A stretch of DNA of 64,000 bases from Amyelois transitella. Lineage: Eukaryota; Arthropoda; Insecta; Lepidoptera; Pyralidae. Below, piece after piece: positions 3,690-42,200 of this stretch; the first letter of the stretch is position 1; each line of letters begins with the position of its first letter. The position numbers and the translations under genes are program-made. The notes beneath the pieces were generated by a model. The model searched no databases. It was not told the origin of the DNA and saw only the letters and a program-made list of their open reading frames with translations. The stretch lies in NCBI RefSeq assembly GCF_032362555.1, contig NC_083515.1, positions 3,817,001-3,881,000 on the forward strand, given 5' to 3'.

Positions 3690-4013
3690 ATCATAAATAG
3701 TGTCCGACCGAAGCTTCGGCTTCGGCTTCGGCTTCGGCCACCTTCGGCCAAAAAATCCACCTTCGGCGAAACATTCGGCTTCGGCCCAAAATCCGGCCGA
3801 AGCCGAAGGTTTCGCCGAAGGTCCGAGCGACCGTCGAGATTGAACGAACTGTTACGAAAGTCATGAGGCGGCGGGGAGTCACTGTCAAAATATCACATTG
3901 CTGATTGCATGCATCAAAACAAGTCCGTACGTGTATTTAAACGAGTGTTTTTGTAAGAAATCAAATCATTATTTTTACCAGTAGGTAAATCACAAACTTT
4001 TATCTATACATAT

Positions 4014-4300
4014 AATAAAACAGTAAAAATATTTTGTCTGTACATTTAGTATTTTCGACTGAAATGGATAGAGGGACACTTAGAATGAATAATAGAAAGC
4101 AAAAATATTTTTTTTTAATTTCTTGTCTGTCTGTCTGTATGTATGATCACGATTATCTCCGAAAGTACTAAACCGATTTACTTCAAACTTTCACCAATTG
4201 CTTTGTTTTAACTCAGAATAACATTTAAAGTTTGTTTCATCAAAATCGGTTCACAAAAAAAAAAGTTATCGACATTTGAATGAAACTCAAGGCATCAGTA
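4014..4300 (+). repeat. Dispersed repeat fragment inside the hAT element
   Basis: The segment begins with a run like CATATAATAAAACAGTAAAA and continues through a TCTGTCTGTCTG stretch and an 'accgattt...' core. A related copy starts at 4754 and ends with GACGAAGTCGCGGGC near 4888-4903, the terminus of a very common lepidopteran short interspersed repeat. Family name not determined. Confidence 0.55.
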
Positions 4301-4384
4301 TGCCGGCAAATAAGTTACGAAATTAAAAATTCAAAGTCATTTATCATTATACGACGGCATTATACCTATAACATATAAATATAA

Positions 4385-4573
4385 GTGAAAGGCGACTAAG
4401 GGATGGGCTTACAAACTTGGGATTCTTTTTTAGGCGATGGGCGAGCAACCTATCACTTTTTGAATCTCAATTCTATCATTAAGTCAAATAGCTGAACGTG
4501 GCCATTCAGTCTTTTCAAGTCTGTTGGCTCTGTCTACCCCGCAAGGGATAAAGACGTGACCATATGTATGTAG
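4385..4573 (+). mobile_element. SINE copy, CATA/TATG-tailed family, 5'-truncated
   Basis: It matches the 3' three-quarters of the full copy at 39779-40044 (which is on the minus strand): 'aggcgactaagg', 'cttgggattc', 'agctgaacgtggcc', 'ctgttggctctgtctacccc', ending in CATATGTATG. It lies inside the hAT element, so it inserted after that element or was copied with it. Confidence 0.8.
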
Positions 4574-4607
4574 TCTACTTTAATTTCGACACCAACGCAA
4601 CGGCTTC

Positions 4608-4690
4608 GATGGTCCAGTGGTTAGCCCGTGAGACTGTGAAGTTGGCGGTCCAAGTTCGAATCCCAAGAATTACAAGATATTTTTTATTAT
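4608..4690 (+). mobile_element. tRNA-like SINE head fragment
   Basis: It shows an A-box-like TGGTCCAGTGG and a B-box-like AGTTCGAATCC about 35 bases apart, then an AT-rich tail. The acceptor stem does not pair, so this is a tRNA-derived repeat rather than a working tRNA gene. Confidence 0.5.
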
Positions 4691-4753
4691 TAAAAATATT
4701 TTTTTTTGTATTGTTTGAGTATTTTATGTAAAAAAACTGAAAATCAAAATACT

Positions 4754-4913
4754 ACATATAATAAAACGGTAAAAATATTTTTTCTGTACATTTAATATTT
4801 TGACTGAAATGGATAGAGAATTTTTTTTTACATTTTTTGTCTGTCTGTATCTGACTGTATGATTAAAATTCAACTCGAAATTTACGCGGACGAAGTCGCG
4901 GGCAACAGCTAGT
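4754..4913 (+). repeat. Dispersed repeat ending in GAAGTCGCGGGC
   Basis: This is a second, diverged copy of the repeat at 4014-4300, ending with GCGGACGAAGTCGCGGGC and AACAGCTAGT. The same terminus recurs at 29431-29460 and, in reverse, near 57682-57705. Confidence 0.6.
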
Positions 4914-5185
4914 TTATCTCTAAACCAACCACCTCTATGATATATCATCAACTTCTATATGAGACAGTCAATATATAAACCTTCAATATTGAGGTTTTGA
5001 AATGATTTTAATATTAATTGTAGCTTGTAGACAATATTGAACAAAATTAATTACTGAGTGCTGAGAGAATATAAACCTTCGGCTTCGGCTTCGGCTTCGG
5101 CCGAAGGTTGTGGCGATAGCCGATTAATCGGCTTCGGCTTCGGCTTCGGCCAAAAATAGACCTTCGGTCGGACACTAATCATAAA

Positions 5186-16555: not shown

Positions 16556-16871
16556 TAGTGATGGGACTCGAATCACGTTTAACGGTTTAATTCGAATGAT
16601 TCGAATGATCGCAGTCATTACCCCATTCGGATTGAATTATATATTGATTCGATTCATTGATGATTCGAACTGTCCAATTGATTCGAATCAAAAAGTTGAT
16701 ATGAATCCTACGATTATTCGAATTGATCCGAATCAACTCTCTGATTCAAATCAATTTATCTTATTCGGATCTTCATTGCTCGGCGAACTTGCCTACCTTA
16801 CAGGTGAGACCACTAGGATATTTTCAAGTTTGTATTGCGATTTTGAATATTTTTGAAGTTTATATCGTGTT

Positions 16872-16910
<39 letters not shown>

Positions 16911-17227
16911 CGAGTTTAGGGTTTAACTGGATTTGTGTTATACATAAAGTGTTAGTGGGTACACTAAACTTGAACACCGTGTTGTATAGGTAAAAAATAT
17001 GGCACCGGCAAAACAAAGTATTGTTTGGGACTTTTATATAAGCTAAAATTTATATGAGCTAAAATTTTTTTCGTATATTTTCATTGCTTTGAATCATCAA
17101 ATCGATCCTTATTGATTCGAATCATCAGTTAATTCGGATCGAAGGCTAATTCGAATCACCATTCAAACTTTTTCCTGGTGATTCGAACTAATTCGAGTAC
17201 AGAATTTCGATTCGAGTCCCATCACTA
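16556..17227. mobile_element. Non-autonomous hAT-like element with GATTCGAATC arrays
   Basis: The terminal inverted repeats are TAGTGATGGGACTCGAA at the left end and its complement ending CCCATCACTA at the right end. The element is flanked on both sides by the same 8 bp, AACCAAAC (16548-16555 and 17228-17235), as expected for hAT insertion. The interior of both halves (about 16560-16770 and 17085-17225) is packed with variants of the near-palindrome GATTCGAATC. The middle carries a TA microsatellite. The plus-strand open frame at 16521-16856 is only a by-product of the repeats. There is no transposase. Length 672 bp. Confidence 0.85.
16877..16908. repeat. (TA)n microsatellite
   Basis: About 16 uninterrupted TA units in the centre of the hAT element. 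Confidence 0.9.
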
Positions 17228-19885: not shown

Positions 19886-21740
19886 TCTAATAGGTCTAAT
19901 TTATTGTTTCAATGAAGATTTTTTGTAAAAGATCCAGCACAGTACCTATGTATATAAAACTTTATTTGTATAACTTCATTGAAAATGGTTAGAAAACTGG
20001 AAAAGCACACAATTATAAAGTCATTAAGATAGTACTTGAATTTAATTGCAAATGTGAGTTAAGCAATCCTATCTATAGTATCTCTATTTAGTTTGTGATC
20101 AAATCCACACTTCCTTGCTCAGCACAGCAATCAGCTTAGACTTAGATGTGTTATTCCCATCCCACAGTGACATAACGTGACAGTGACGGCTGATCAGTTG
20201 ATAGCTGAAGCTATCCTGTGAAACAATTCCAAAGAAAACGTAAAAAATCGATTTAGCTGGTTCCCATGAATGGGAAAATTAGTTTTCTCATATTTTCCCA
20301 AAAAAATATTTTCCCCTATGAAATGGTCGCGGCCGGTTTTCACTTCGTGGAACCGTGTGAATTCTCGGCAAGTGATAGTTTTATTTTCTGCTTTAATGTA
20401 TATTTCTATTTTGTTTTTATTGTTATATGTTATATGGATTTTCAGATTTGTTGGTGTTTTTTAAAGTATTCTTGTTTTTGCTACATTTTAAAGATTTTCT
20501 GACGTTCAACGAGGTACTAAATGTATTGTAGCGGGAGCGATGATTCGGGCTCGACCGCCACCAAAAGCAAGATCTTCCGCCTGGCAAGGTGTTATGCCTG
20601 GGGAACCGCGGCTCCGACGATGTTGTGTCGGAGGTTGTATATTATATAGCTCCAATCCGTGAAATCTTTGCTTGTGCGATTTAGGTTTTTAGTTTCTTTT
20701 GATTGATAGCGTCGCGTGATTCTATTTTTTATTTTTATGACTTGTGGCGTATAGATTTCGCCAGAGTAGGTATATTTGTACTCGCGTTCTCAAAAACGGC
20801 TTGAACGATTTTGTGGAAATTGGAAAAATAAATACATACGATCGTAATAAATCGATTAAGCTGAGTTCCATGTCTGAGAAAATTCCTTTATTGTATACTT
20901 TATCCTAAAATTATGTATTTTCCCATATAAGATGGTCGCTAGGCATTGATAATTTCGGCGCACGCGATAGCTTCACTAGTAACTCAGTGGTTATGTCCAT
21001 ACAGGAGGATTTTCACGACGGACGACCTGAGTTCGATTCCCAGCGACGGATAACTTCTTTTGTATTTATTATTTTACTTTGGTGGTTCTTGATTTTTTCT
21101 ATTTTTACTTAATTTTTATGGTTATTTGATATTTTTTCCATAAGTATTAACTTTATTTTTGGGAATATAGTACAGTACTGACAGTATTTGAATTTTACAT
21201 TAAATTTTTTTGACGATTTTTTTGGTGGTGTTTCTGTTTATACTACTTAAAATGGTTTATCCGACGTCCACCGAGCACAGCGCAGTCACCCAGGTACTGT
21301 ACCTATAAAAATACGAAATAAAAGTACCTAATATTTTTTTTTATTGGGGACACAAAGTACGTTCCCTTATAAAAAATTAGAAACATAAGAAAACTCAATT
21401 CGGTGTCAATTTAAAAAAATACCTAGGTGACGTATCTTTCTTTTCTACCGAACTTTCGGTTCTGTGATTCTGCCAATGTCATAGTTTGAAGAGACATGAA
21501 GTTACGGAATTGGTCAATGGATTATTATACGATTTACGATCATTTCATTCATTCCATTCAACGTGTGCGTTTGATTTTTTGGTGCTGATTTCTTTCTTGG
21601 TGTGATAATATACGAAAATTAGTGTTTGGTTTGAAAAAAATCGAATTAGTATTTCCCTGCGTTTCAAATTATATAATTGTCATATTTCTACGTTAGGATT
21701 GATAAATTATTTCTATATTGTTGAGATATAAAAAGTACAC
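19886..21740. other. Intergenic region between CHMP6 and LUC7L3
   Basis: CHMP6 (minus) and LUC7L3 (plus) are divergent, so both promoters fall here. A diverged direct repeat occurs at about 20247-20373 and 20848-20980 (both start with an 'atcgatt.agctg' block, contain 'atggtcgc' and end near 'gatag'). A GC-rich block at 20520-20650 and a tRNA-like piece at 20979-21060 are also present. No additional gene is supported. Confidence 0.45.
20979..21062 (+). mobile_element. tRNA-like SINE head
   Basis: It shows an A-box-like TAACTCAGTGG and a B-box-like GAGTTCGATTCCC, followed by an AT-rich tail. It lies directly after the second copy of the diverged direct repeat, so the two may form one composite element. 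Confidence 0.45.
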
Positions 21741-21809
21741 ATGCATAATGGCGGTGCTTGCAGCTGCTCAACTCTTGGACGAATTGATGGGACGGCATCG
21801 GAATACTAA
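21741..21809 (+). promoter_or_regulatory. Overlapping upstream ORF at the LUC7L3 start
   Basis: An ATG at 21741, seven bases before the true start, opens a 22-codon frame in +2 relative to the main protein and stops at 21809 inside the LUC7L3 first exon. If the mRNA starts upstream of it, scanning ribosomes would meet this ATG first. Its context (CACATGC) is weaker than that of the main ATG (ATAATGG). Confidence 0.5.
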
Positions 21810-24800
21810 TCCTAACGAGAAAATAAAAAAGCCAAACTGGGAAGACTCTGAGGTAAATATTGTTTAAAATCTACATTTGCACTTATTTGTCTTTATATCC
21901 TGACTTTATTGCTTCTGATAATCTGTGATCCCTATAATGTGGTTCAAAATTTGTATTTTTCAGTATTGCAAGTATTACTTGGTAAAGTTTTGCCCTCATG
22001 ATCTTTTTGTCAATACGAGGGCTGATCTCGGAGTTTGCCCTAAAGTACACGATGACGAGGTTAAAGAGCTATTTGAAAAGGCTGAGTCGTCGTACAAGAA
22101 AGCACAGTACGTTGAAGAGTTTTTACGTTTCTGTAGGCACATGATCAATGACGTTGAGAGTGAGTACTTTTTTAAAACAATTTTGCAAATTTCAGTGTCT
22201 TGTGGAAACACATATGTTCATATAATTTTGATAATGTGAAAAATTTTAGGGAAAATACAAAAAGGCAAGCAGAGATTGGAACTAATGAATTCTAAACCAG
22301 AAGGTCCTCCAATGACTCAAGCTCAAACTGAAAAAAATCAGGAACAAGTAAGTATACTCTGCTGGTTCCACGCAGCTTATCAATTATATCATTACATTCC
22401 AATTACTATCACCACAGTGGCACCACTATCATAACTGTATTATTTTAGAAAAATAAAGTATTAAAAATATAAATGCCTTGAAGTATGTATGTATTTGCGG
22501 TCTATAAATAATTCCTAAACATGTAATATGTTTTGTTTTTCACCATAAGATGATGGTTTTATGACAATGGTGTAGTTTTTCTAACATATGCTTTTTTAGG
22601 TTCAGCTTTTATCAGAAAAGGTCAAATCATTAGTGCAAGAGGCCGAGGAGGCTGGAACACGAGGAGATGTGGAACAGGCCCAGGGTTTAATGAAGCTATG
22701 TGATCGGTTGAAAGAAGAAAAAGATCAGCTATTGAAACAGCAAGAAAACAGGTAAACCCACCACTTTATAATAAAACAAGTACAATTTAGGTAACATAGG
22801 ATAACAATGACATCTGCAGAAGTTATGAAACTGTGTCGCAGATCTCAACGCCCACCTCCAGAAAACATTTATATAATGTGTTTCCTTAATCTTAGTACCT
22901 AATCCATTTATTACAACAAAAGAGAAGGAAAAAGAAAAAGATTTGATATTTAATATATGTATTGGGTGCAAATGTGTTTTGTTTATGGAATATACCAATT
23001 AATAGCAGAAATACTTTTCCAGTAATGTTTTTTTGTTCTACATACTAAGTGTTAACAACTTTATAAAGATTAATAAAATTTTAATTACAGCCATTGGTCT
23101 ATGACTGTTGAGCTGGCCGCAGCTCAAGAGAAGCAGATGGAAGTGTGTCCTGTCTGCGGTGCCTTTTTGATTGTTGGTGATGCTCAGCAGCGGATTGATG
23201 ACCATCTCTCTGGAAAACAACATGTTGGGTATGTTATACAATATGTGACAAAAACCTGTTAGATCCATGAAGCATACTAGGTTATAAAGAAGATTCAATT
23301 TATCGGTTTTTTGCCAAAAAATAACTAAATATTACGCTAGAAATTAAAATTAATATGGTAACTTTGTGGCAACTCATTAACTATTTATAGTGCCACAAAG
23401 AATGTGTTGTCGCTTTCATCGATACTGCGGTAATCTTAGTGATCAAATTTAAGTTTTTTTTAATATTTCGTAAAATTGTAAGTCGAGTGGTGCTTTTAAC
23501 AGATGAGACAGGTTTTCCGTTACATATTGAATGGTTATTATAAATATCTCTTTAGTAACGTTTATTGCATTTGCATTAGACTCACATCCAAGGAATGTGA
23601 CAAAAAGTATTTGCTTCCATAGGAACTAACTGAAACAAATTTAGCCTAAAGGTCTAGTCTGTTTGTTAAAATATTATTTGAAGTAGGTCCTCTATTTATT
23701 CATCTTTAGGCTATTAAGAAATCCACCTTAAGTTCCAATAGTCATAACTAATGCTAGAGAAAAAACAATATTACCTTTGAGATTTTATAACATACATACA
23801 TACATATGGTCACGTCTATATCCCTTGTTGGGTAGACAGAGCCAACGGTCTTGAAAAGACCAGATTTGACAAAGTTGTTACAATTATCAAAAGATTTGAA
23901 AAAGGTATGTATTTGCTGCCTTGCATAACTAGCTATATAGGGTTATATCGGGACATCGCTCACGCGGGAAATTCATCTTCTTCATAAAAACAAAAAAATA
24001 TAAATATTTTTCCTGTATAATATAACTTTGGAGCATGGATAGGCATTTCAATAGTGATAACAGCTGTGCTGGCTACTTTAAGAGGTGAGTGCAGTATGTA
24101 GTTTTTTGATCATGGGGGATGCCTAACGTGACCATAGACCAAGCGGGGCGCAAGACATGACAAATCTTTTGCCATTTGTTCATTAAATAATCCCCCAATA
24201 GTTTAACTAAATAGTACAGCAAATTTGAAAGATTTTGAGATGTTCAGGCAGCAAGTTACAAATGAAAGACTCATGAATTTGCATAAAAATTGATGTGCAT
24301 ATCCACATTTTTATAGCATTCATTGCAGGTTTCATTGATTTGAAATATTTGATTTGCTATTGTTGTAATATAGGAAACCTATATATAAGTACCTATATAT
24401 GTATTTTAAGTGTACATAGGCAAAAAATTAAGAATCCCTATATAAATGAAGTCTTATCTTATAGGTTGCCAGATCTGAGTGAAATAAAAAATGGTCACGT
24501 TAGGGATGCCCAGCAAAGGATCATTGATCATCTCTCGGGGAAGCAACACATTGGGTATGTTTTTCTATCCTGTTACTTCATTATGACCCAGGCTTGGTGC
24601 CCTTTGGTTTATCCCGATTAATGCTTGCTTTGTACATAATTTTCCCTAAGTTGAAGATTAATATAGATGGTTTCTAATAAAAGTTGATGTTTTCAGATAT
24701 TTCAAACTCCGCCAGGCGTATGAGGAAATGAATGAGGCTCGTGAAAAGGAGTTGCAAGAGAAAGAGAGGAGGCGTCGTGAAGACCGTGACAAAGATAGGA

Positions 24801-25975
24801 GTTCTAGAGGGGGCGGTTTGGGGTCTGACAGACGGGATAGGGAGCGGATGGAAAGGGATAGGGAGAGAGACGGGGACAAGGACAGGAAGGATCGGGACAG
24901 GAGTGACCGCGAGCGGGAACGAGAGAGGGATAAGGACCGTCATCGGTGAGTCGATATAATAGTGAATTTATTTGCCAGTTTATAAATGTTAGAAGCATAA
25001 TGTTTAAGGAATTATTTTTTAAGGATTTAAATTCAATATATTATAGGACTAGTAATATTTCCATTAGAGAGTAAGTGGCTATTTACTAGATGATACAAGC
25101 AATAATAAAAAGTTCAGTGAAAATTCTTCGGCGCTCGTCTTATGGTCTAATAATTATATCAGATAAAACAAAACCCTTGCCTAAGAATGTTTCCATCAAA
25201 CGCTGTAGTGAGAGATGTTAAATGAATTGATAATATTTACTTTCAGTTCGAGTCGCGATGACCGCAGCAGCCGCCATGAAGATCGCGACCGCGACCGGGA
25301 CCGCGAGCGCGACCGCGACCGCAAACATCGCAAGGACAGAAGTGAGTCTAAATCCCGTAACATAGGTACTATAAATAACTAGACCTACAATTCTCCGAAA
25401 ATGTTTCCGAAACAAACAATTTTGCCCATCCATTCGAAAGTGGATCTTAACGCATGAGAATAAAGCATAAAATCCTTAAATATAAAATTTCTTAATCATA
25501 TTTAAGGATTGTGTGCTTTATTGCAAAACATTATCATCCGTTTTTTAATAGTATATACCGGGGAAAAAAGTGACGATATTTGTTTGATTTCGTCGCGCTT
25601 CTATGAACAGTTTAGTTGATCGAAGCTATAACCTCGAAAAAACTTACAATTAGGTACAGTTAAATCATCAATAGATAACTTAAGAAATTTAGCCTGTACG
25701 TATGTTCCGACGAGCATAGGGGAGCACAAGATTTTTTTGAAATTGCGTGAATAGGAATATGTGGGCATTGGTTCATATTTGCAATTTTCTTGTCAGATCT
25801 TTTGAAACCTGCATTTGTTTTAAAATCACATGGAAAAATTCACAACTGTATGTGTATTTTGATACTTCAATATCTGATTTACCACCATATTTTATAAAGG
25901 TATGCAATAATCTTTATTTTTACACCAGGATCATCCCGTGACCGCTCTCGCCGACGGTCCCGCGACCGTCACTAG
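21748..25975 (+). CDS. LUC7L3: LUC7L3 (CROP) U1 snRNP-associated splicing factor (8 exons)
   Basis: Exons: 21748-21852, 21964-22159, 22250-22347, 22600-22751, 23091-23228, 24697-24945, 25247-25341, 25929-25975; 1080 nt, 359 aa, with every junction GT-AG and phases agreeing. The start MAVLAAAQLLDELMGRHRN and the CCCH finger (CKYYLVKFCPHDLF...CPKVH, residues of about 37-65) are typical of the LUC7 family. A coiled coil spans about 110-175, and the second finger CPVCGAFLIVGDAQQR...H...H falls at about 200-225. The tail from about 245 is a run of RD/RE/RS dipeptides. LUC7 proteins bind U1 snRNP and influence 5' splice-site choice in the nucleus. The RS-type tail and the finger sequence place it with LUC7L3 rather than LUC7L/LUC7L2. 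An extra exon candidate lies in intron 5 (24465-24554). Confidence 0.95.
23788..23868 (-). mobile_element. 3' end of a CATA-tailed SINE in LUC7L3 intron 5
   Basis: Starts with CATACATACATACATATGG and then GTCACGTCTATATCCCTT, 'gtagacagagccaac' and 'cttgaaaagac'. It is the reverse complement of the 3' end of the family. Confidence 0.8.
24465..24554 (+). CDS. LUC7L3: Candidate alternative LUC7L3 exon (duplicate of exon 5)
   Basis: It is bounded by a TCTTATAG acceptor and the donor GG|GTATGT, which is identical to the donor of exon 5. The exon is 90 nt and has the same phases (2 in, 2 out) as exon 5, so it can replace exon 5 or be added to it without a frame change. Its 3' half encodes DAQQRIIDHLSGKQHIG, against DAQQRIDDHLSGKQHVG in exon 5. 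Of 11 codon differences in that half, nine are synonymous. Its 5' half (LPDLSEIKNGHVR) has no CxxC, so a protein using it in place of exon 5 would have only the histidine side of the second zinc finger. Confidence 0.6.
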
Positions 25976-26010
25976 CTATACACTGAGGTATCACAAAGCA
26001 CCACAAACCG

Positions 26011-26139
26011 GTAAGTATACATCGCAGCAAACCTAACGCTCAGCCCCCAGCACACTGCCCGCTTAGACCTAACACTCCCATCCAAATTCTAACCCATAAA
26101 TAAATCATATCACATTATATATCAACATCATTCCCGCAG
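26011..26139 (+). other. Candidate intron in the LUC7L3 3' UTR
   Basis: A strong donor ACCG|GTAAGTAT at 26011 and an acceptor CCCGCAG ending at 26139 lie downstream of the stop codon at 25973-25975. The donor is 35 nt past the stop, below the roughly 50-nt distance usually needed to trigger nonsense-mediated decay. Confidence 0.5.
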
Positions 26140-26169
26140 ATCCATCCCGAAATTGATACAATGACAAGT

Positions 26170-26220
26170 AATAAAGTGAACACTGTTATTTTACAGCTTA
26201 ATTTAGCATACCAAAATAAA
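26170..26220 (+). terminator. LUC7L3 polyadenylation signals
   Basis: AATAAA occurs at 26170-26175 and again at 26215-26220, about 200-245 bases after the LUC7L3 stop codon, which suits the end of its transcript. Confidence 0.6.
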
Positions 26221-29200
26221 ACTTCGGTATATGGCAAACATTTGGGGCGTAATGTTGACCCCCCGTTGCACTCTCGATTCGGTAGTTGTCGTCACACCGA
26301 CGGACTTGGACAGGTATTTGATTGGTATTTTGAATAGTTGCCACGAGCCCGACACGACTGGGATGCTATTGGGCGATCGCTGCGAACTGCGTGAGAAAAA
26401 GACACGTGAATTTTTGCTAATGTGACAAGATAAAAGTTAAGTTAGCAAAGTTCACGTTTCACTTTTTCGTGTGATCATTTTGCGTTAAATGATAGAAGCG
26501 AGCGATGGTCCTAATAAGCTCCCCCGATTTGAGCAACTCGTCTGCGTCGTTTTGAGGTATTTCAACATGTTTTGTCTCGTGGCGGGTTGTCGAGCTGACC
26601 GATCTTGGACGCGATGTCAGGTATTTGTTAGGACTTCCGTGTAGGGTTCAAATTCATTGTATATACGTTAATGAATGAGAATTTTCCCAATAGTATGAAT
26701 ATAAAACGCCGCTTCACATTTTCATCAGTATCAGTTTTTTAACCAGTCAATTTTTCCAATTTCAAAGATAATTTTGAATCTGAACTAAACCATTTTCCAA
26801 CATAGCGTTTCAGAACAAATTATTAAGGTACCTATACGTATGATAGAGGAATCTTGCGGGATTCTTAAAGTCAGTTTCCATCCACATACCATCCAATTTT
26901 TTTTATTATGCGGAGTCTTATTTCCTGAATCTAGGCAATTTTTCGTCAAAACGTTTTATAAATCTGTTGGTTTAAATAATAAGAAAAAAATATCTCCATG
27001 GCGCTAAGAAGACATCCAAGAGACCAGAGAAACTTCCTGATTATTTTGTGACTAGTCGCAGCGTTTTACTTGTCGTTACATTGCCATGTTTCGGAGATAT
27101 GAGAGAGCACACCCAATTCGCTCCTTGTATCGCAATATTGGATGCTGTAATCACATCATATGTACTTCCAGGTACCCAAAATTTGTAAACGATTGGCAAC
27201 AAGTTTCATAATTTTCAAAAAAGAATAACATGCCAGATTTGCATTGCAATTTATATTAAAGAAATAACCGCCAAAATTGAGATATAATGCGAAGACTTGC
27301 AGCCAATCTATAAAAATACTAATAATCCCCGGTAAACCCTTTTGGATATCTACAATTCGTGGTTGTAACGACAACTTTTTTGATTAAATATTTTTTTGAG
27401 AATTTACAATTATTAAAATTCGCAATAGCTCGTATCTATGGAGTGAATATCAATGTGTGTGAACTAATAGGATTCTTGCATTATTCTCTTTTCGTGCAAA
27501 ATGCTTAATATAAAGTTTAATATATTATTAATTTTTCCTTTCGGTGTTCAATAATTCAATCACGAATTGTGTTTCCAATATATCTGCCGATGAAATTCTC
27601 GTTACTATCTTGCTCGATGGACTTTTCAGTTGGAAATGGACAAAGACTCGCCGAAGTGCTCCTGTGACATCAATCAGAGGTACTTTATGAAATAAGCACA
27701 TCTGAAGACCACGGCATCCAGCAGAGCTTCACCAATGGTTAGAGGTGACATAGAATAGTCACATTACGTATTAGGACACCCGTTAGCGTACTTCATAAAC
27801 CTTGATATAAATGCATGGTCCCTCTCAAAATGGACTTGTCTACTTAGAATATTAGATATTTGTATATTTATCTTCCTACCTCGGCAAATGTCACATCTAT
27901 AGGGAGGTCTATTATTACCTTTACCGGTTCAAACTTTGGAAGTTTCAGGTATTTATCAATTTATTTTATTTTTCTTGTTACAATGTTATTGTAATTGCTT
28001 TGATTCAAAAGTGTGAACTAGGATTTAATTACAAGTAATAAAACATTACTTACATAAATCAGTTTTTTTATTATCTTCTTTTATAACATTCATTTTTTCG
28101 GGTTAGTGTAGGTACCTTACCTAAATTAAATCGGGGGACTTGGGTAGGTCTACGGGTAAAAGTTGGATTAATAAATTACTGGCGAATATATTTCAGGATG
28201 GTGGGACTGCGGGTAAAAATACCCCGTACCACCAGGCGTTGGGACAAAGTAGGAGTAGCACTGGTAAATGAAAATTATAATTCATACCTACTTAAGGAAT
28301 GCACGCACACAGAGAAATAAAACTGCGAATATTTTTATTCTCTTTTTAATCTCATCCATATCAAATTACTGAACAAAGTTTTTAGTTGGTACATCGTATT
28401 GTGTCTAATTATTTCATTTCCTATAAAATATAAATTGGCGTGGCACCATCGAAGACAAGATATCTAAATGGCTGTGATATTTTATCTCCATGATTATCAC
28501 TGCACCATCAAAAACCCCTATAACCAGACGATTTCGAATCGTATTATCCCATCACTAACAATCCAGCCAGTGTTAACATAAATGATATAATTTTTAGTCT
28601 TATTTAAATATCTAATATAATTCTACTTGATACAATTATTTTATTACCATAATCTATATACAAGTAAATACAAGCTATATTATATTTGATTACAAGCTGT
28701 TATATGTTTGGAAGTGATTATAACACCACTTCTTAAATTGATGGCATGTTAAGTAAGTATTTTAACTGCTATTACATTCCTTAAAAGAACTATATCAAGT
28801 TATATCACACTTTTACTGTACGTACATGGCAAATTATATAATTGGCTATTGAAGCTGGACCTGGTTTCCGTATAAAGGGTCATCTGTCCAAGTACAATTG
28901 TTTTGTGTGAATTAGGATGGCGGGTGTAAAGACACAAAAACAAATATGTTATATACGAAAAGAGCATACTAGTTGTGTACCTAAACGTACCTTATGAAAT
29001 TGAGTCAACCTCCAAGGAACAAAAACAATAATCCAGCTAGTCGCAGTTTTGACGGTCTGAATGGCGGGTAAAAGCTGAAAGCTTTTGATTTACACTATAA
29101 ATTTATTTTTAGTTGCAATGAAGTTTAAATAAATAAATATATAATTTTTAATTACTACTCAAAATGTAGCTTTGAACGTAAGCGTGAGATCTAAGCAGTA

Positions 29201-33280: not shown

Positions 33281-36200
33281 CTGAAAAATAATAATAATAA
33301 AAAAAATTCTATCATTAACCCAAATAGCTGAACGTGGCCTATCAGTCTTTTCAAGACTGTTGGCTATGTGATGTGATAAAAAAACCTTATCAGCAAAGAT
33401 CAATTAAATTATGACCATAGAAATAACAAAGATTTTACTGATTGACTTGAACCCAAAGTTTGATACACTCGGAAGACTCCTAGCATGGTAAGTATACGAG
33501 ACAGACAAAAGTATACTGTCATGATATTGTGCTTACTCAGTCTGAGTCTCAATATTAATGAGATTTGAACTCAAAGTATGATGTTCCTCAATCATGATAA
33601 GATAAGTATACTGACATGATATCGTGTTTCCTCTCCTGCGGCTCCTGCTTGTCGCAGTCGTCGCGCTCGGCCGCCGGCGAGCACTCGCTGGCCTCGTCGT
33701 GTGTGCGCCGGTGCGCCACCAGGTGGCCTGGCGGACAACAAACACTATACTCACAATACTCATACACTTATATTATGGCAGCTTTGGCAAAAACGTTTAA
33801 GAGGTATGTTAGAGTCTTTATGTATCTTACCTAGGATTCCCATAATTATACACAGTATGAAAATGCTGTTTGTATGTTGGAAACTATGTGTCACCAGGCT
33901 TTCTATATATTTTGATGATGCATGTCGCTGTAAACTATTGACATAATAGCAAGTACAGATTTAAATATTATGATGAGATTTTTATTGTAATTGGTAATCA
34001 ATATGCTTAAAAATGGTGGGATAGATTTTGTATGCAATTTGGAACAGTTGACCTTCAGGAATAATCTGACTGACGAGTTTAGAGCTAGATTTGCCTATTG
34101 TTGCCTGACAACATCTGTAATAGAATTGAGATTCTTAGATAGTGACAGGACGTTAGCCAATTACCGAAAAGAAGAATTACAAGAATACTAAAAGCCAGAA
34201 GGAGCAACACTTGTTCGTCTTTTACAGGCTATTGTAAGAAGAGAAGCAGCTGGCAACCACAAGACTTATCATTTTCATCAGCAGTAGCACATAAAATACT
34301 GACCTTTACAAAGGAATTCCTTCGAACAGACATCACATCGAAATGGTGTGGGGGTAGCGCCGCTGTTGGTCTTGTTGTGCGACCGCTGATGGAACAGAAG
34401 GTTGCCTTTCAACGGGAAAGACTTGCCGCATTCACCGCAGCTGAACGGACGCTCGCCGCAACTGTGTGATCTGTAATTTGAATGAAGTACTCATGAGCTA
34501 TGCCCATATACAACTGAAGGTACAAAAAAGAAATAGTAGTGAAAGGAGTGTGCCAATGGTTATTTCTGATAAATTTTTGGCCACTGACACACAAGTAGAC
34601 AATTTGGTCATCTAGATAAATAGGTAAGAGAAAACAAACAAATATTAATAAAAAAATTAGCACAATGAATTAGCACATAAATAAATTAAACAAACCTCAT
34701 ATGCGTTCCAAGATGTTCTTTCCTAGTAAATGGCTTGGAACAGATTTTGCACGTATGTGGCGTGTCGCCCGTATGCTGCTTCATATGGTTCGTGAGGTGT
34801 TCTTTCCGTGTAAACCGCTTCTGGCAGAATTCACACCGATGGGGCGACTCGCCCGTGTGGATTCTTGTTGAAAAAAAGTAAAGTTAGGTTGTTTAAGAAA
34901 TTACATAAAGTATATGAAAATACTTAAACTGTTAAAATAAATCGGTGTAAGAAGTTTTTTAAAAATAAAACTCTTATTAAAATTAATTGAAAAAAAAAGA
35001 AAGAAATGGTGTAGCTTAAAAATATGCAAATTATATATGAAAGCGAGAAAGTTTTCACATAGTTAGATTGTAACAAGAATAGAAACATAATGGTACTCTA
35101 CTATTTTATTTTATTTAAACTTAGTTGCTTAAAATGGATGACTGGCTTATTGAAACATATTGCTTGGGATATTCACCTGACATGATTGGTCAAATGCTCC
35201 TTCCTTGAGAAGGTCTTGGTGCAGAAAGGACACTTATGCGGCGTCTCCCCCGTGTGGAGATGCACGTGGTTGGTGAGGTGCTCCTTGCGCGAGAACGATT
35301 TCGTGCAGAACGTGCACTTGAACGGAGTCTCGCCGGTGTGTTGTCTGCAATACATTCCGATGTGTTATTACGTTTACAGTTCTACCACTTCAACATGTCG
35401 CCTCGGCAATATTTGAAGCCGAATCAAACCGAATAAAAACTCAATACAAAAAGACCTTATTACAAGTACATTAAAATTAAAACCCAAAAACAAAATGACT
35501 ACTCCCTGCTATCACCCTTATAATAGTTGTAAAATCCGCAAACAGTTCAGTTCGCGGGTTCATCATACCTGACATTATGGATGAGGTGTTCCTTCCTTGT
35601 GAAGCTCTTGTTGCAGTATCAGCAGGAGTGGGGGGCATGTCTTCCGTGTGTTGTCTGATGTTTTTACTAAAGAGATTCAGTCTACCTGACCTTATTGACA
35701 AGACGCTCCTTCCTCGTGAAGCTCTTGTTGCAGTACGAGCAGGAGTGGGGCATGTCTCCTGTGTACTGTATGATTTTTAAGGCGTTCAAACCAAGAAGAT
35801 TCTGTCTCATACCTGACATGATTGACAAGGTGCTCCTTCCTCGTGAAGCTCTTGTTGCAGTACGAGCAGGAGTGGGGCATGTCTCCGGTGTGCTGCCGGA
35901 TGTGGTTGGTGAGGTGCTCCTTCCGGGAGAACGCTCGAGGGCAATACGTGCACTTGTGTGGAGTTTCCCCCGTGTGCTGCCTGCGCAACAGAGTACATTC
36001 CGATTTGTTGTGTAAATATCTTTTAGACTATGTAACTAAGACTGACGTGTTATTCAGACCTCATCTAGTGATAACTGTAAATATTAGCGATATCATCTAC
36101 ATTGCAAAAAAAATCACAAATTGCTTTGCATAAAATAAGTTTCATCCTTGACAAGGTCTGAATGATGTGTCCTATTATATTTTTTATCACTAAGTTTCTG

Positions 36201-39200
36201 ACTTGGGGCCCGCAAGCTCGAAAAGCTCAAATCGGAATGCACAATGCTGTGCTACTGCTCTCAAAGGGAAACTTCACACAAATGCCGTCTGGGACCAGTA
36301 TGCAACTACTCCATTAAGAAAAATATAACTCTTACCTTGGGTTTGAATTGGGTTACATGCGTATTCATGCATACTACTTGATGACATGCCTTATGGGATC
36401 TAGGATTAATCTACTAGACGGTCAGTGTTTTAGGAACCGTAGCATTTAGCAGTTTGTAGCACAGCATTGTTTATTTCTACTTTATCTGAGTTTGATGTAT
36501 GAAGAAAAAGATATTTTTAAAATTAAAAATAACTCGCATGATACTTTCAGTAGGTCAATAATATTATTCCATTAGAATAAAGTTGGAAACTTGATTTGCA
36601 TTATTAGCTTGGCCAAAAGGTAACAATAAAAGTTGGCTTTTAAAATTTGGTGAACATGTTTAAATAATACACATTTTGGTTGTTAAGTGCTATACAAAAT
36701 TTGAGAATTTGTTTAAAAATAAAAAACAGTATACATTAAAGTTCTTTTCTAAATGTTTAAATTTTACTGGCCGTTCTGTAGATAAATCAAAATTCTACGA
36801 GAAAGTACCACCCCAAACCGGCAAAAGTTAAACTTTCTCACCTGACATGATTGGTTAGATGTTCTTTCCTCGTGAAAGATTTCGAACAGAATGTACACCG
36901 ATGGGGTGATTCTCCGGTGTGCTGGCGGACGTGGTTAGTGAGGTGTTCCTTGCGGGTGAACGACTTGGTACAGAACGAGCACTTGTGTGGAGACTCGCCC
37001 GTGTGTTGTCTCACGTGGTTTACTGTCAACAGAACATTAAAGTTAAGTTACATAGAATATGGACACAGAGGAAGAAAACTAATAAATATCTTCGTCCTCC
37101 TGAAGTTAGTCCCGAATACAAATTGTTTACTCAAAAAGCCGGGATGGTTGCCTCACACGGTTCTCTAGAAATTCGCGTCGCATAAACGACTTGGAGCAAA
37201 AGTTGCATCGGTGCGGGGATTTAAACGAGAATATTGTAAACACAAAAAACAATATATTACCGAGATGGTCTTTCCTAGTGAATGCCTTGGGACAGTATCC
37301 GCACTGGAAGGGTGTCTCTCCCGTGTGTTGTCTGACATGATTCACGAGATGTTCGCGGCGCGTGAACGACTTGGAGCAGAAGTTGCATCGGTGCGGGGAT
37401 TCCCCCGTGTGTTGTCTCACATGATTCAATAAGTGCTCCTTGCGCGTGAATGTTTTGGAACAGAAATCGCAGCGGTGTGGCGTCTCGCCTGAAATACAAA
37501 TTTATTGGTTAGTTATACAGTTAAGTATAGTTCGTATAGAGGAAACATACGCACGTAGTATGGAATTTCAATTAAACTTTGTCTCTGTATACCCAAAATA
37601 CAGACCAGTACGTCAACGATTAAAAGATCGTCGCGTAAAGATGTATGTGAAGGAATCAATAAATAATGGTAGACTGAAACAGATATGTTTTTGCGTATTA
37701 TCCATGCGTTAGTTAGCAACACAACACAAAATTTGTAAGATAAGAAAAAAATAAAATAAACAGGAAATCCAAGCCTGCCACCAGCAGTACATTGCGAGGT
37801 ACAGTGGGCAAAACAAATACTCTTTCACACAATCAATGGGCTTAAATGAAAGCTATACTAACCCGTGTGCCACATAATGTGATTGGTGAAGTGTTCCTTT
37901 CTCGTGAACGACTTGCCGCAAAGATCGCATCGGAATGGAGTATCGTTTGTGTGTGACCTCATATGGTTCACTAAATGCTCCTTCCTAGTATACTTCCTGC
38001 CGCAAATTTGACATTGGTGCGGCGTTTCACCTATGCGTGGGCAGAAAATAAAACGTTAACATTCAATGATGCAACTATGCTTTTTGATACTAATCAATAT
38101 ATTGAGATTTCAGGTGTTAGTAACTTTAGTGTGAGGGCCCACGTTTTAGTCAATGGTATGTTAGAGGCTCTATATAGAGATTTTGATAGTTGAATCATTC
38201 AATCTTTCTACTTTCTGCACCACTTCTTTGACGTATTTTTGGTGCAGGCTTGGTTTATCCTATTTTTATTCTACTAATCTTGTCGATGTAATTACCAACT
38301 ATAAACCTATAACAATATAATTCTGTTGTATAACAGTATATTTTACAATAAGAATTTACCTTTATTTAAACATGCTCTATTACTAATTGTACAAGGGAAG
38401 ATTATTACATAATAATACTACTCATAAATAGATTTTATTTTTACTATATTGCAAGACTAAAGTAAGTAAAACGATGTGCATTGTTGCATATGGGGATGTT
38501 AATTAAAATAAAAGTGAATTATTTGAACAATCAATAAATCATTGTCTATGAGTTTGTTTCTATTTAATTGAATACTATATAAATACAAAAAGAAAAATTA
38601 AATACTGCGCCGATGATTTTCGATCCCTATTGTACTGCACTTTTAAAAGAACAGATATATTGTTGTACATATATAGAAAAAAAAATCGAAATTTTGGAAG
38701 CAGGACATACTACAGGTGATGTACATAATATTCTCAATGCCGGAACGTGGTCATTAGCGCATCTCGGGCTCCTCTGCAGAGGTGAGGACAACACCGAGAC
38801 AACGTCGGAAGGGCGAGATGGTGGTGTACTGTACATATGATTCCCAAGGCATTGGTTTATGCTGAAAGACCGACAGCCCACTTCATGATGGATTGTGATG
38901 TTTTCATATGCAAGACTCCACTTGCGTCCAGTCTTTATCAAGATCAGAATTAAGATCTTTCATGCAAGCAGCTGAGGAAGAAATCAGGAATGTGCTATGA
39001 TGAAAAACCTTTAACAATACACAATATGTAACAGAAACCCAGCCCAAAAACCGTGACATAATAAAATCGGATATTCTCTATATTTAGCAAATTCAAAGAA
39101 AATGATAACACATTCTTGGCAGTGGCCTATTGAGCAACAAGCCATGACAATACTTTTAACAATGGTATTTTTTTACCTTTATACGCTGGCGTGCAAGTGA

Positions 39201-42200
39201 TATTGAATCTGATAAGGAATATTCACTGATAACTTATAACTGATAAGGAAACTTACATCAGATGAGATGCAAATGTTGAAGTAACGACGATAACAAAACG
39301 GACATGGTTTACGTTACATATTGAATACCTTCTTTGAACGAAAATTAGTACCTAGTATACTTTTTAATAAAGCAAAGGGCACCATACCTGTATGCCACAT
39401 GACATGGTTCATGAAGTGCTCCTTCCTAGTGAAGCTCTTCTTGCAGATCTCGCAGCGGTGCGGCGTTTCGCCCGTGTGTTTGCGGACATGGTTCACCATA
39501 TGCTCTTTGCGCGTGAAAGTCTTCGCGCAGAATTCACATCTGTGGTAATAAAACTTTGTTACGGCACTTTCAACTAAAAAGCTCACATATTTGTAAGTAA
39601 AGTTTTGTATTGTTCATACAAAAGAGCACATCACAATATATTAATTCCTTCTAAAATAATTCTAAACTTGACTTACTGTCGAAAAAAAATACATAGCAAG
39701 ACATGTATATTCTAGAGTCTATGTCTATACTTTTGGGACAGTACAGGTTTTAAAAAATCTATTCATATACAATGTTACATACATACATACATACATATGG
39801 TCACGTCTATATCCCTTGCGGGGTAGACAGAGCCAACAGTCTTGAAAAGACTGAATGGCCACGTTTAGCTATTTGGCTTAACGCTAGAATTGAGATTCAA
39901 CTAGTGACAGGTTGCTAGCCCATCGCCTAAAAAAGAATCCCAAGTTTGTAAGCCTATCCCTTAGTCGCCTTTTACGACATCCATGGGAAAGAGATGGAGT
40001 GGTCCTATTCTTTTTTGTATTGGTGCCGGGAGCCACACGGCACAATGTTGTAAGCAAAAAAAATGGAAATGGAAGATGAACTTATTTATTTATCACCGTT
40101 TCAATCTTACCTATAAGGCGTCTCTCCAGTGTGGCTGCGTACATGATTATCAAGGTGCTCCTTACGCGAAAAGGTTTTATGGCAAGTTGTGCAAGCGTAA
40201 GGTTTGTCTTGAGTCAATCTCTTTGCGTTGCGTTCGGCCGGGTCACCTGCTGTAATAATGAATAGTATTGAAAATATTTAGTATATGACATAAGATATAA
40301 TTTCATGTGATAACTATACATATATACTGTATATTTCATTTTAGACTTAAATACTACTGAACCACTTATGTTGTCCATAAAACGTCAGATATCTATCTAT
40401 ATATTATAAAAAAAAAAACAAATTTCTTGGCCATAAAACCAAAAGTACGATGTTGAGTTTTGCAGAGGCAGCTTACAAGAACATCAATAGTGCATCATGT
40501 CAATCATACGTAACCCTTAGATTTAGTGGTTGTACTCGTATAACTGGAGTGTTATTCCATAAGGCTTGTTTGATTGTAATTATAATAAGAACACTTACCA
40601 AGGTGGCATTTTCCGTGCCTGGACAATTCAACAGGGTTGGCGAAAGCGGAGCCGCAAACTTGGCACGTGAATGGCTTGCTCTCGCCGTGGTATCGTCTAT
40701 ACGGACATTGCAAAATTATATATTAACACATTACTGCTGAATAGATAACTGATTTGATATACAATTAGTTAAAAAGTTGTCTATCCTGTGAGCTTTTAAT
40801 TACATGCAATAGAACCAAAACAAATGCCGAGAATTCTGGCACTTGTAATTTACCAATCGGTTAAAATTACATACATATTATATTATGACGTATATATATA
40901 TATATAGGTATATACGTCAAGTAGATATTATGGAAAATGGAAAGGCATTGTTACCTATGCCTTTGGGAAAGAGTCGTAATTTTATATATCTTATATCTAT
41001 AAAATATAATGAGTATTACCTGTGAACAATGAGTTGGTATCTAAACGGGAAGGTCTTTCCGCAGATATCGCACGAGTGCTGCCCCGGCGAGGACTCTGAC
41101 TCCGACATGGCTGCACTTGTACCCGCTTCTACTTCCACTTCGCTGATGACCTATAAAAACAATAATTATGTCATGAAGTTTGAAAGACTAATTTTATAGT
41201 GCGAATTCAGATCGCCGTCGTTTCTCTGCAATAACGTGAACTTTAATATAAGCAGACTGCAGACAAATTCAGGATAAACTCTAGGATGACGTGTTCCTTT
41301 TAGTAGTTTATTAAAAGCAAGCCTATGAAGAAACATAGTTTTTATCAGTCCAATAGACTGAATGTTCAAGGCTTCAACTGGTGGTTGGAATTATCTTACA
41401 TATTCAAAGGTTATGATTGTAATTAGACTACCACACTAAGAAAATAATCTGAAAACATTGTTACACATATTATGCATGTTACATTTGAGTGATACAACGT
41501 CTTTTCGCATCGAAAATAATAATATTAGGGTTTCTACTTACTTTAGCTTGCTGCTGTCCCTCCGTGTTTAGCTTCCCAAACACCTCATGGTACGCCAGCA
41601 GTTGTGAAAGATCTTCAACATTCACTTTGTACATCGCGTGGAGATCGTGATCTGCTGCTCCAGCAGATATCTTCACCACTGCACCTTCCATACCCATAGC
41701 TCCAACGCTCTGTAAGAGATTAAATTAAACAACTGTTTATGTAAACCATGTAAGGTATAAGAAAAATAGATATACATATATATATATATATATATGTTGA
41801 TGTTACCTTTAGATCGATTCCCTTGATATCCTTTATTTCCGTCGGTATCGCGAACTGTGCCGTTTCAATTTTACCGGTATTCTTCTCATCTTTGACTATC
41901 AGCGGGTCTGCTGCACTCGCTTCTATAGACGTGGTTCCGTCGGGATTGTGAGTAACTAGGATGTTTGCAGGTTCACCTGTGGCTTGCTCAATTCTGACGA
42001 CGCTATCTATTACCTGTATAATAATATTCAATGTTAACACAAGAAATACTAAAGACGCCGTGTAAGTAAAGCAAAATGTGACAATTTAAAGTTAATCCCA
42101 ACTAATATGAATTTAATATACTATAATAACTATTTAATTAAACTTATAGTAGGTACCTAAGTAGTATTTATTATAGTTAGACGTAGAATTACGTTGTATT

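Follow-up and report, generated by a model that had tools for sequence, protein, structure and literature searches.

The window analysed here comprises 64,000 nucleotides of Amyelois transitella (contig NC_083515.1, positions 3,817,001 to 3,881,000 of the forward strand), and all coordinates below are those of the window. It contains a LUC7L3-like gene, which we take to be of the LUC7L3 subtype rather than L or L2, with the following coding features:

21748..25975, plus strand: LUC7L3-like gene with 8 coding exons, 359 amino acids and stop TAG (exon joins and translation)
21748-21852, 21964-22159, 22250-22347 and 22600-22751, plus strand: coding exons 1-4 (joins and translation)
23091-23228, 24697-24945, 25247-25341 and 25929-25975, plus strand: coding exons 5-8 (joins and translation)
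23091..23228, plus strand: canonical exon 5, encoding the second zinc finger CPVC...H.....H (exon joins; alignment to yeast Luc7)

Both a LUC7 domain with two fingers and an RS-rich tail are present in the encoded protein. Its first 247 amino acids match Pfam LUC7 with an E value of 1.4e-91, the yeast Luc7 chain matches it at 2.8e-23, and the C-terminal tail is RS/RD-rich. The second finger aligns with CEVC...DH....KIH of yeast Luc7. The coding RS/RD stretch is the sole tandem repeat in 21000-27000, and a scan of 21500-26500 against Rfam gave no match at the gathering score. Elsewhere in the window, on the minus strand at 35682-37501, there are ORFs that carry zinc-finger motifs of the C2H2 type in tandem (HTGETPHKC...) and apparently belong to a separate zinc-finger gene.

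The initial annotation had singled out the segment 24465-24554, in intron 5, as a duplicated alternative exon that could be spliced instead of exon 5 or added to it. Its coordinates, its length of 90 nt (0 mod 3) and its phases are right, the frame is open in both splicing schemes, and the donor motif GGGTATGTT is common to exon 5 and the segment. Homology to exon 5 was recovered by alignment over 63 nt (23173-23235 versus 24499-24561), by comparing exon 5 with the window (blastn E 1.3e-5, tblastn E 1.9e-6), and in the repeat search as a direct repeat with 76% identity over 70 nt. The count made in the 16 aligned codons, with 11 changed and nine of these synonymous, was exact. The acceptor, described as good, is plausible with a score of 6.8, although 63 of the 3190 AG sites in the window, 24465 included, equal or beat that value. 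The statement that the segment duplicates the 3' half of exon 5 turned out to be incomplete: the 3' match is real, but a 5' half of the copy is present too, at 24085-24123. Between the two halves lies the following structure:

24124..24502, no strand assigned: MITE-like insertion of 379 bp, with 12-bp terminal inverted repeats (TIRs) TAACGTGACCAT at 24124-24135 and 24491-24502
24116..24123, plus strand: left 8-bp target site duplication (TSD) GGGATGCC, a direct repeat outside the TIR
24503..24510, plus strand: right 8-bp TSD GGGATGCC, a direct repeat outside the TIR
24465..24502, plus strand: right end of the insertion, forming the first 38 nt of the proposed exon (insertion boundaries)
24463..24464, plus strand: AG of the putative acceptor, inside the insertion (splice-matrix scoring)

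The ends of the insertion are laid out as GGGATGCC, TAACGTGACCAT ... ATGGTCACGTTA, GGGATGCC, with the TIR (12 of 12) and the TSD (8 of 8) perfect and bracketing 24124-24502 exactly. The proposed exon is made up of 38 nt of this element, 8 nt of target duplication and 44 nt of exon-5 copy. Exact pairs of 8-bp TIR plus 8-bp TSD averaged 0.06 per window when the sequence was resampled 50 times with a first-order Markov model and 0.16 when its bases were shuffled 50 times; five were observed, including 24124-24502. The other four are two element-like structures (3698-5177 and 16556-17227) and two overlapping pairs in a TATA repeat at 40899; when 12-base ends are demanded, 24124-24502 and the two element-like structures are the three left. 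The first of these two, with 1480 bp, 16-bp perfect inverted repeats TAGTGTCCGACCGAAG and an 8-bp duplication ATCATAAA, is probably another hAT-like element judging from its sequence. The second measures 672 bp and has 19-bp perfect inverted repeats TAGTGATGGGACTCGAATC and an 8-bp duplication AACCAAAC.

The terminal bases of hAT elements are YARNG. Those of the insertion, TAACG, fit, and 3698-5177 and 16556-17227 begin TAGTG. Its 12-bp TIRs fall in the hAT range of 10-25 bp, and its TSD has the 8 bp of a hAT-type MITE, with exon-5 homology resuming at the TSD. Target preferences of hAT elements (Ac or Buster group) are nTnnnnAn or nnnTAnnn; the target GGGATGCC fits neither, and so no Ac or Buster group is claimed. 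The MITE-like identity of 24124-24502 is a structural assignment throughout: there is no second copy in the window, where an internal 25-mer matches only the element itself and the best other blastn match is 22 nt long (E 0.006). Matches of a 16-base element end in 20 viral contigs were judged to be due to chance, and a literature search with the TIR letters gave, by title, no transposon paper among the matches. The sequence AGACGTGACCAT, two mismatches away from the TIR of the element, occurs four times in the window (4552, 7421, 23806 and 39797), three of the four sites having GAACGTGGCCAT or AAACGTGGCCAT about 58 bases off; it seems likely to be an interspersed repeat, perhaps unrelated to the element. 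We also set aside an in-frame ORF at 24277-24621 as unremarkable, as it crosses the element and the window lists 30 ORFs of at least 100 amino acids.

If a copy of exon 5 had been split by an insertion, exon-5 sequence should resume to the left of the left TSD, and it was found there. The parts of the copy are:

24085..24123, plus strand: 5' half of the exon-5 copy, including the left TSD (VSAVCS-FLIMGDA versus VCPVCGAFLIVGDA)
24511..24554, plus strand: 3' half of the exon-5 copy (QQRIIDHLSGKQHIG), followed by the donor GTATGTT at 24555-24561 (alignment, repeat search)
24024..24084, plus strand: possible decayed 5' part of the copy, homology not secure, with an in-frame TAA at 24079-24081

With the TSD excluded, the score of 24085-24115 against exon 5 is reached by only 9 of 42646 stretches in the window, its own site counted, and by 6 of 9609 when the gene region on the plus strand is excluded. 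Joining the flanks across the insertion yields a single exon-5 alignment that is gapless at the junction. Upstream of 24085 there is little likeness to exon 5, with scores as high in 105 of 3121 control windows, and beyond the donor the intron flanks of the copy and of exon 5 show no likeness (1061 of 3116 and 1183 of 3119 as high); therefore, the duplication either started within the exon or included further 5' sequence that has since decayed. Altogether, the sequence gives good support to an anatomy of a split duplicate plus a MITE-like element. In the 5' half, the first Cys of the CxxC has been lost and one adjoining codon deleted; this half reads VSAVCSFLIMGDA and then hits TAA as the very first element codon, and a second in-frame TAA lies just upstream of it, at 24079-24081. 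The CxxC is indeed absent from the 90-nt segment, as the initial annotation had pointed out, but this is because the insertion separated the 5' half, and not because a switch of the finger was designed.

The repeat search reported the same ends as a 21-nt inverted repeat, 24115-24135 and 24491-24511, with 90% complementarity, which might instead be taken for a selected RNA stem choosing between exon 5 and the copy, with no transposon end involved. Besides the complementarity over 21 nt, the fold of 24105-24520, closed by this stem, speaks for such a structure, with a z score of -2.33 that was matched by 1 of 100 shuffles. However, the extra pairs are accounted for by the near-palindromic target duplication, and none of the 21 inverted-repeat pairs found in the repeat search has an arm within exon 5 (23091-23228). 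A stem would also leave unexplained why the direct repeat GGGATGCC lies exactly outside the inverted 12-mer and why exon-5 homology stops and resumes exactly at the arms. On account of these last two points we rejected the stem, which we regard as very hard to credit, in favour of a transposon-like insertion.

The splice sites of intron 5 were scored with matrices built from seven sites each, taken from the LUC7L3-like gene itself, whose seven acceptors range from -1.0 to 8.4 when each is left out in turn. Apart from the AG of exon 6, no AG of the intron outscores the acceptor at 24465. The donor at 24554 scores equal to the donor of exon 5 on this seven-site matrix, a score flattered by its being identical in sequence to one of the training sites. 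As long as the element is present, an open exon with its end at 24554 can start from seven in-phase AG in 23240-24540: five are in the element (the best being 24465, with 6.8, and 24411, with 5.3), one is at the junction (24504, 5.9), and one, weak, is within the 3' half (24519, -4.2). At the rejoined, element-free site, the only in-phase open acceptors score -0.2, -3.5 and -6.8. Given these weak acceptors and the stops, the old exon can no longer be produced in its intact form, whereas the chimeric one could be. The strongest donor of intron 5, GAG/GTGAGT (10.2), closes a stretch of 21 nt, a multiple of three, at 24064-24084 that is preceded by an AG scoring 4.5. This stretch was considered as a microexon and discarded, its resemblance to the exon 5/6 junction being weak (279 of 3122 as high).

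When both halves of the copy are compared with exon 5, the 27 codon pairs comprise 13 synonymous and 6 nonsynonymous changes and 8 unchanged codons, in addition to the one deleted codon, and the differences at codon positions 1, 2 and 3 amount to 7, 1 and 14. In simulations with a copy that was neutral throughout, none of the 500 runs made at each of seven distances reached this pattern. When exon 5 was made to evolve 2, 3 or 5 times faster than the copy, an always-neutral copy reached it in at most 0.002, 0.0033 and 0.026 of the runs, respectively. The data agree well with a copy that was neutral for 5-10% of its branch (one-sided 0.72 and 0.42), while 25% is marginal (0.062) and 50% is poor (0.004). 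Rejection is weaker with the left half alone (13 codons), which the initial annotation had not selected and for which an always-neutral copy stands at 0.036. These values come from a simple simulation, with equal rates in the main runs, ratios up to 5 in the extra runs and no codon bias, applied to a stretch that was chosen for matching exon 5. Since the synonymous excess rejects an always-neutral copy, the copy was probably once coding. The purifying selection proposed for the 90-nt segment is thus borne out as regards the substitution pattern, which is real and spans both halves, but the selection most plausibly acted on the copy while it was still whole; as the synonymous pattern covers a half absent from the 90-nt exon, it is no evidence for that exon.

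A copy with this same split anatomy could nevertheless have never been a used exon, being either a duplicate that lay dead in the intron or a piece of a LUC7L3 paralogue with a coding role elsewhere. We consider this to be a possibility of clearly lower standing, with perhaps a third of the weight; it shares its anatomy with our preferred explanation, so that the likelihoods given to the two are not mutually exclusive. It would agree with the want of a good native acceptor, with the weak homology before 24085, in-frame stop included, and with intron flanks that share no homology beyond the donor. Against it, the simulation rejects a local copy that was always neutral, and the shared donor motif argues, in the case of the paralogue, for a DNA-level copy that brought its intron edge along. 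The claim of a former exon is itself weakened in that no convincing native acceptor is left, and we rate the former use of the copy as an exon at about even.

The divergence of the element's ends, estimated from the 20 identical base pairs of TIR and TSD, is below 0.14 (95%), a bound that assumes the inverted repeats to have been perfect at insertion and that lies much below the fitted distance of the exon-5 copy. On that assumption, the element is young compared with the copy. The fitted neutral share and the young element both suit a coding copy whose loss coincided roughly with the insertion; the same two figures would also suit a fragment of a coding paralogue. Relatives were looked for in a viral contig collection, where LUC7L3-like sequences gave no match, and in a genome contig collection, where 15 pattern matches included no relative by tblastn; they were hardly to be expected in either.

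Could the end of the MITE have supplied a new acceptor, so that the 3' half was rescued and is now a functioning alternative exon? The product would be a LUC7L3 without the CxxC of finger 2, or one with a 30-amino-acid insert after finger 2, an isoform that is possible but unlikely. The segment is in phase and open, with its acceptor at 6.8 and a donor equal on the matrix to that of exon 5, and 24504, at the junction, and 24411, in the element, would provide two further in-phase open acceptors. The chimeric protein keeps its Pfam LUC7 match, with 250 versus 307 bits. Transposon sequence is also common in Bombyx mori transcripts: PMC8476886 puts it in about 32% of the protein-coding ones, the ORF being affected in only 308. 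However, 36 nt of the composition of the element have an open frame in 35% of random draws, and by simple reasoning the right phase is expected by chance in one third of cases. Moreover, only 44 nt of copy and the 8-bp target duplication are left in this exon, the synonymous pattern includes the half outside it, and the protein would be without the CxxC of finger 2. A rescue of this kind appears improbable to us. Slightly more doubtful still is its extension, that a transposon end captured as the acceptor of a half-lost alternative exon created a lineage-specific switch yielding a U1-linked factor without the metal site of the second finger. The proposed switchable zinc finger is less likely than a relic: the segment as drawn joins the end of a MITE to what survives of the 3' half, and in the window we found no sign of its present use. 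What had been observed at 24465-24554 is confirmed in part, and its interpretation is supported in part.

We therefore favour, instead of a live exon, the following course of events, as read from the anatomy of the locus. Exon 5, with the second zinc finger, would have been duplicated long ago into the following intron, where the copy probably remained under coding constraint for most of its life as an alternative, perhaps mutually exclusive, exon. Later, as the sequence anatomy shows, a MITE-like DNA transposon of 379 bp inserted in the middle of the copy, making an 8-bp TSD and splitting it. The copy would now be a pseudo-exon, its 5' half having no good in-phase acceptor, one finger Cys and one codon gone, and a stop at the element. 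The proposed 90-nt exon would consist of the right end of the element, in which an acceptor presumably arose by chance, and the intact 3' half, and 24465-24554 may at most be spliced at a low level as an exonised transposon end. We are rather confident of the split-duplicate anatomy and of the copy being a relic today. A former function of the copy is plausible, its loss of function is likely, and present use of 24465-24554 is unlikely; the best reading of the insertion is that of a hAT-like MITE that may have killed a fossil exon, perhaps once alternative.

This locus illustrates that a transposon end joined to an exon relic can pass for a switchable finger, and that the target duplication exposes the mistake. 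Should an intact copy persist in relatives that lack the insertion, a choice of second fingers would have existed in the LUC7L3 of that lineage, which, if true, would bear on 5' splice-site choice. Two papers are relevant in this respect: LUC7L3 knockdown alters the use of one class of 5' splice sites (PMC11732430), and duplexes of U1 with the 5' splice site must have 6-7 bp to get as far as the second zinc finger of yeast Luc7 (PMC9436412). Among the matches listed in our literature search, none reported, by title, an alternative exon in a lepidopteran LUC7L3, which does not prove that no such report exists.

As regards known systems, hAT elements are characterised in PMC3942097 by TIRs of 10-25 bp and an 8-bp TSD, with 12-bp TIRs in BuT2. 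Like hAT-type MITEs, 24124-24502 is short and has 12-bp TIRs and an 8-bp TSD; unlike them, its target GGGATGCC departs from both hAT preferences. A duplicated exon in a zinc-finger splicing factor, the kind of arrangement that the initial annotation had in view, is also found in U2AF1, whose exons Ab and 3 are, according to PMC5224494, duplicated, mutually exclusive and reported to be alternatively spliced, whereas the LUC7L3 copy is split and has no known transcript. Similar exon length is a criterion for mutually exclusive exons in the title of PMC3228551; exon 5 and 24465-24554 are homologous and in the same phase, but their lengths differ (138 versus 90 nt), and the second has no native acceptor of its own, since its acceptor lies in the element and the rejoined site is weak on the seven-site matrix. 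The same paper describes pseudo-exons within tandem clusters of duplicated exons that are mutually exclusive; these are exons in the course of being lost, which show frameshifts or stops or lack splice sites. Our case resembles these pseudo-exons in being a homologous tandem copy in the next intron, with the same phase, a shared donor and a damaged 5' part, and differs from them in that the damage is mainly a clean transposon-like insertion and the host gene encodes a LUC7-family splicing factor.
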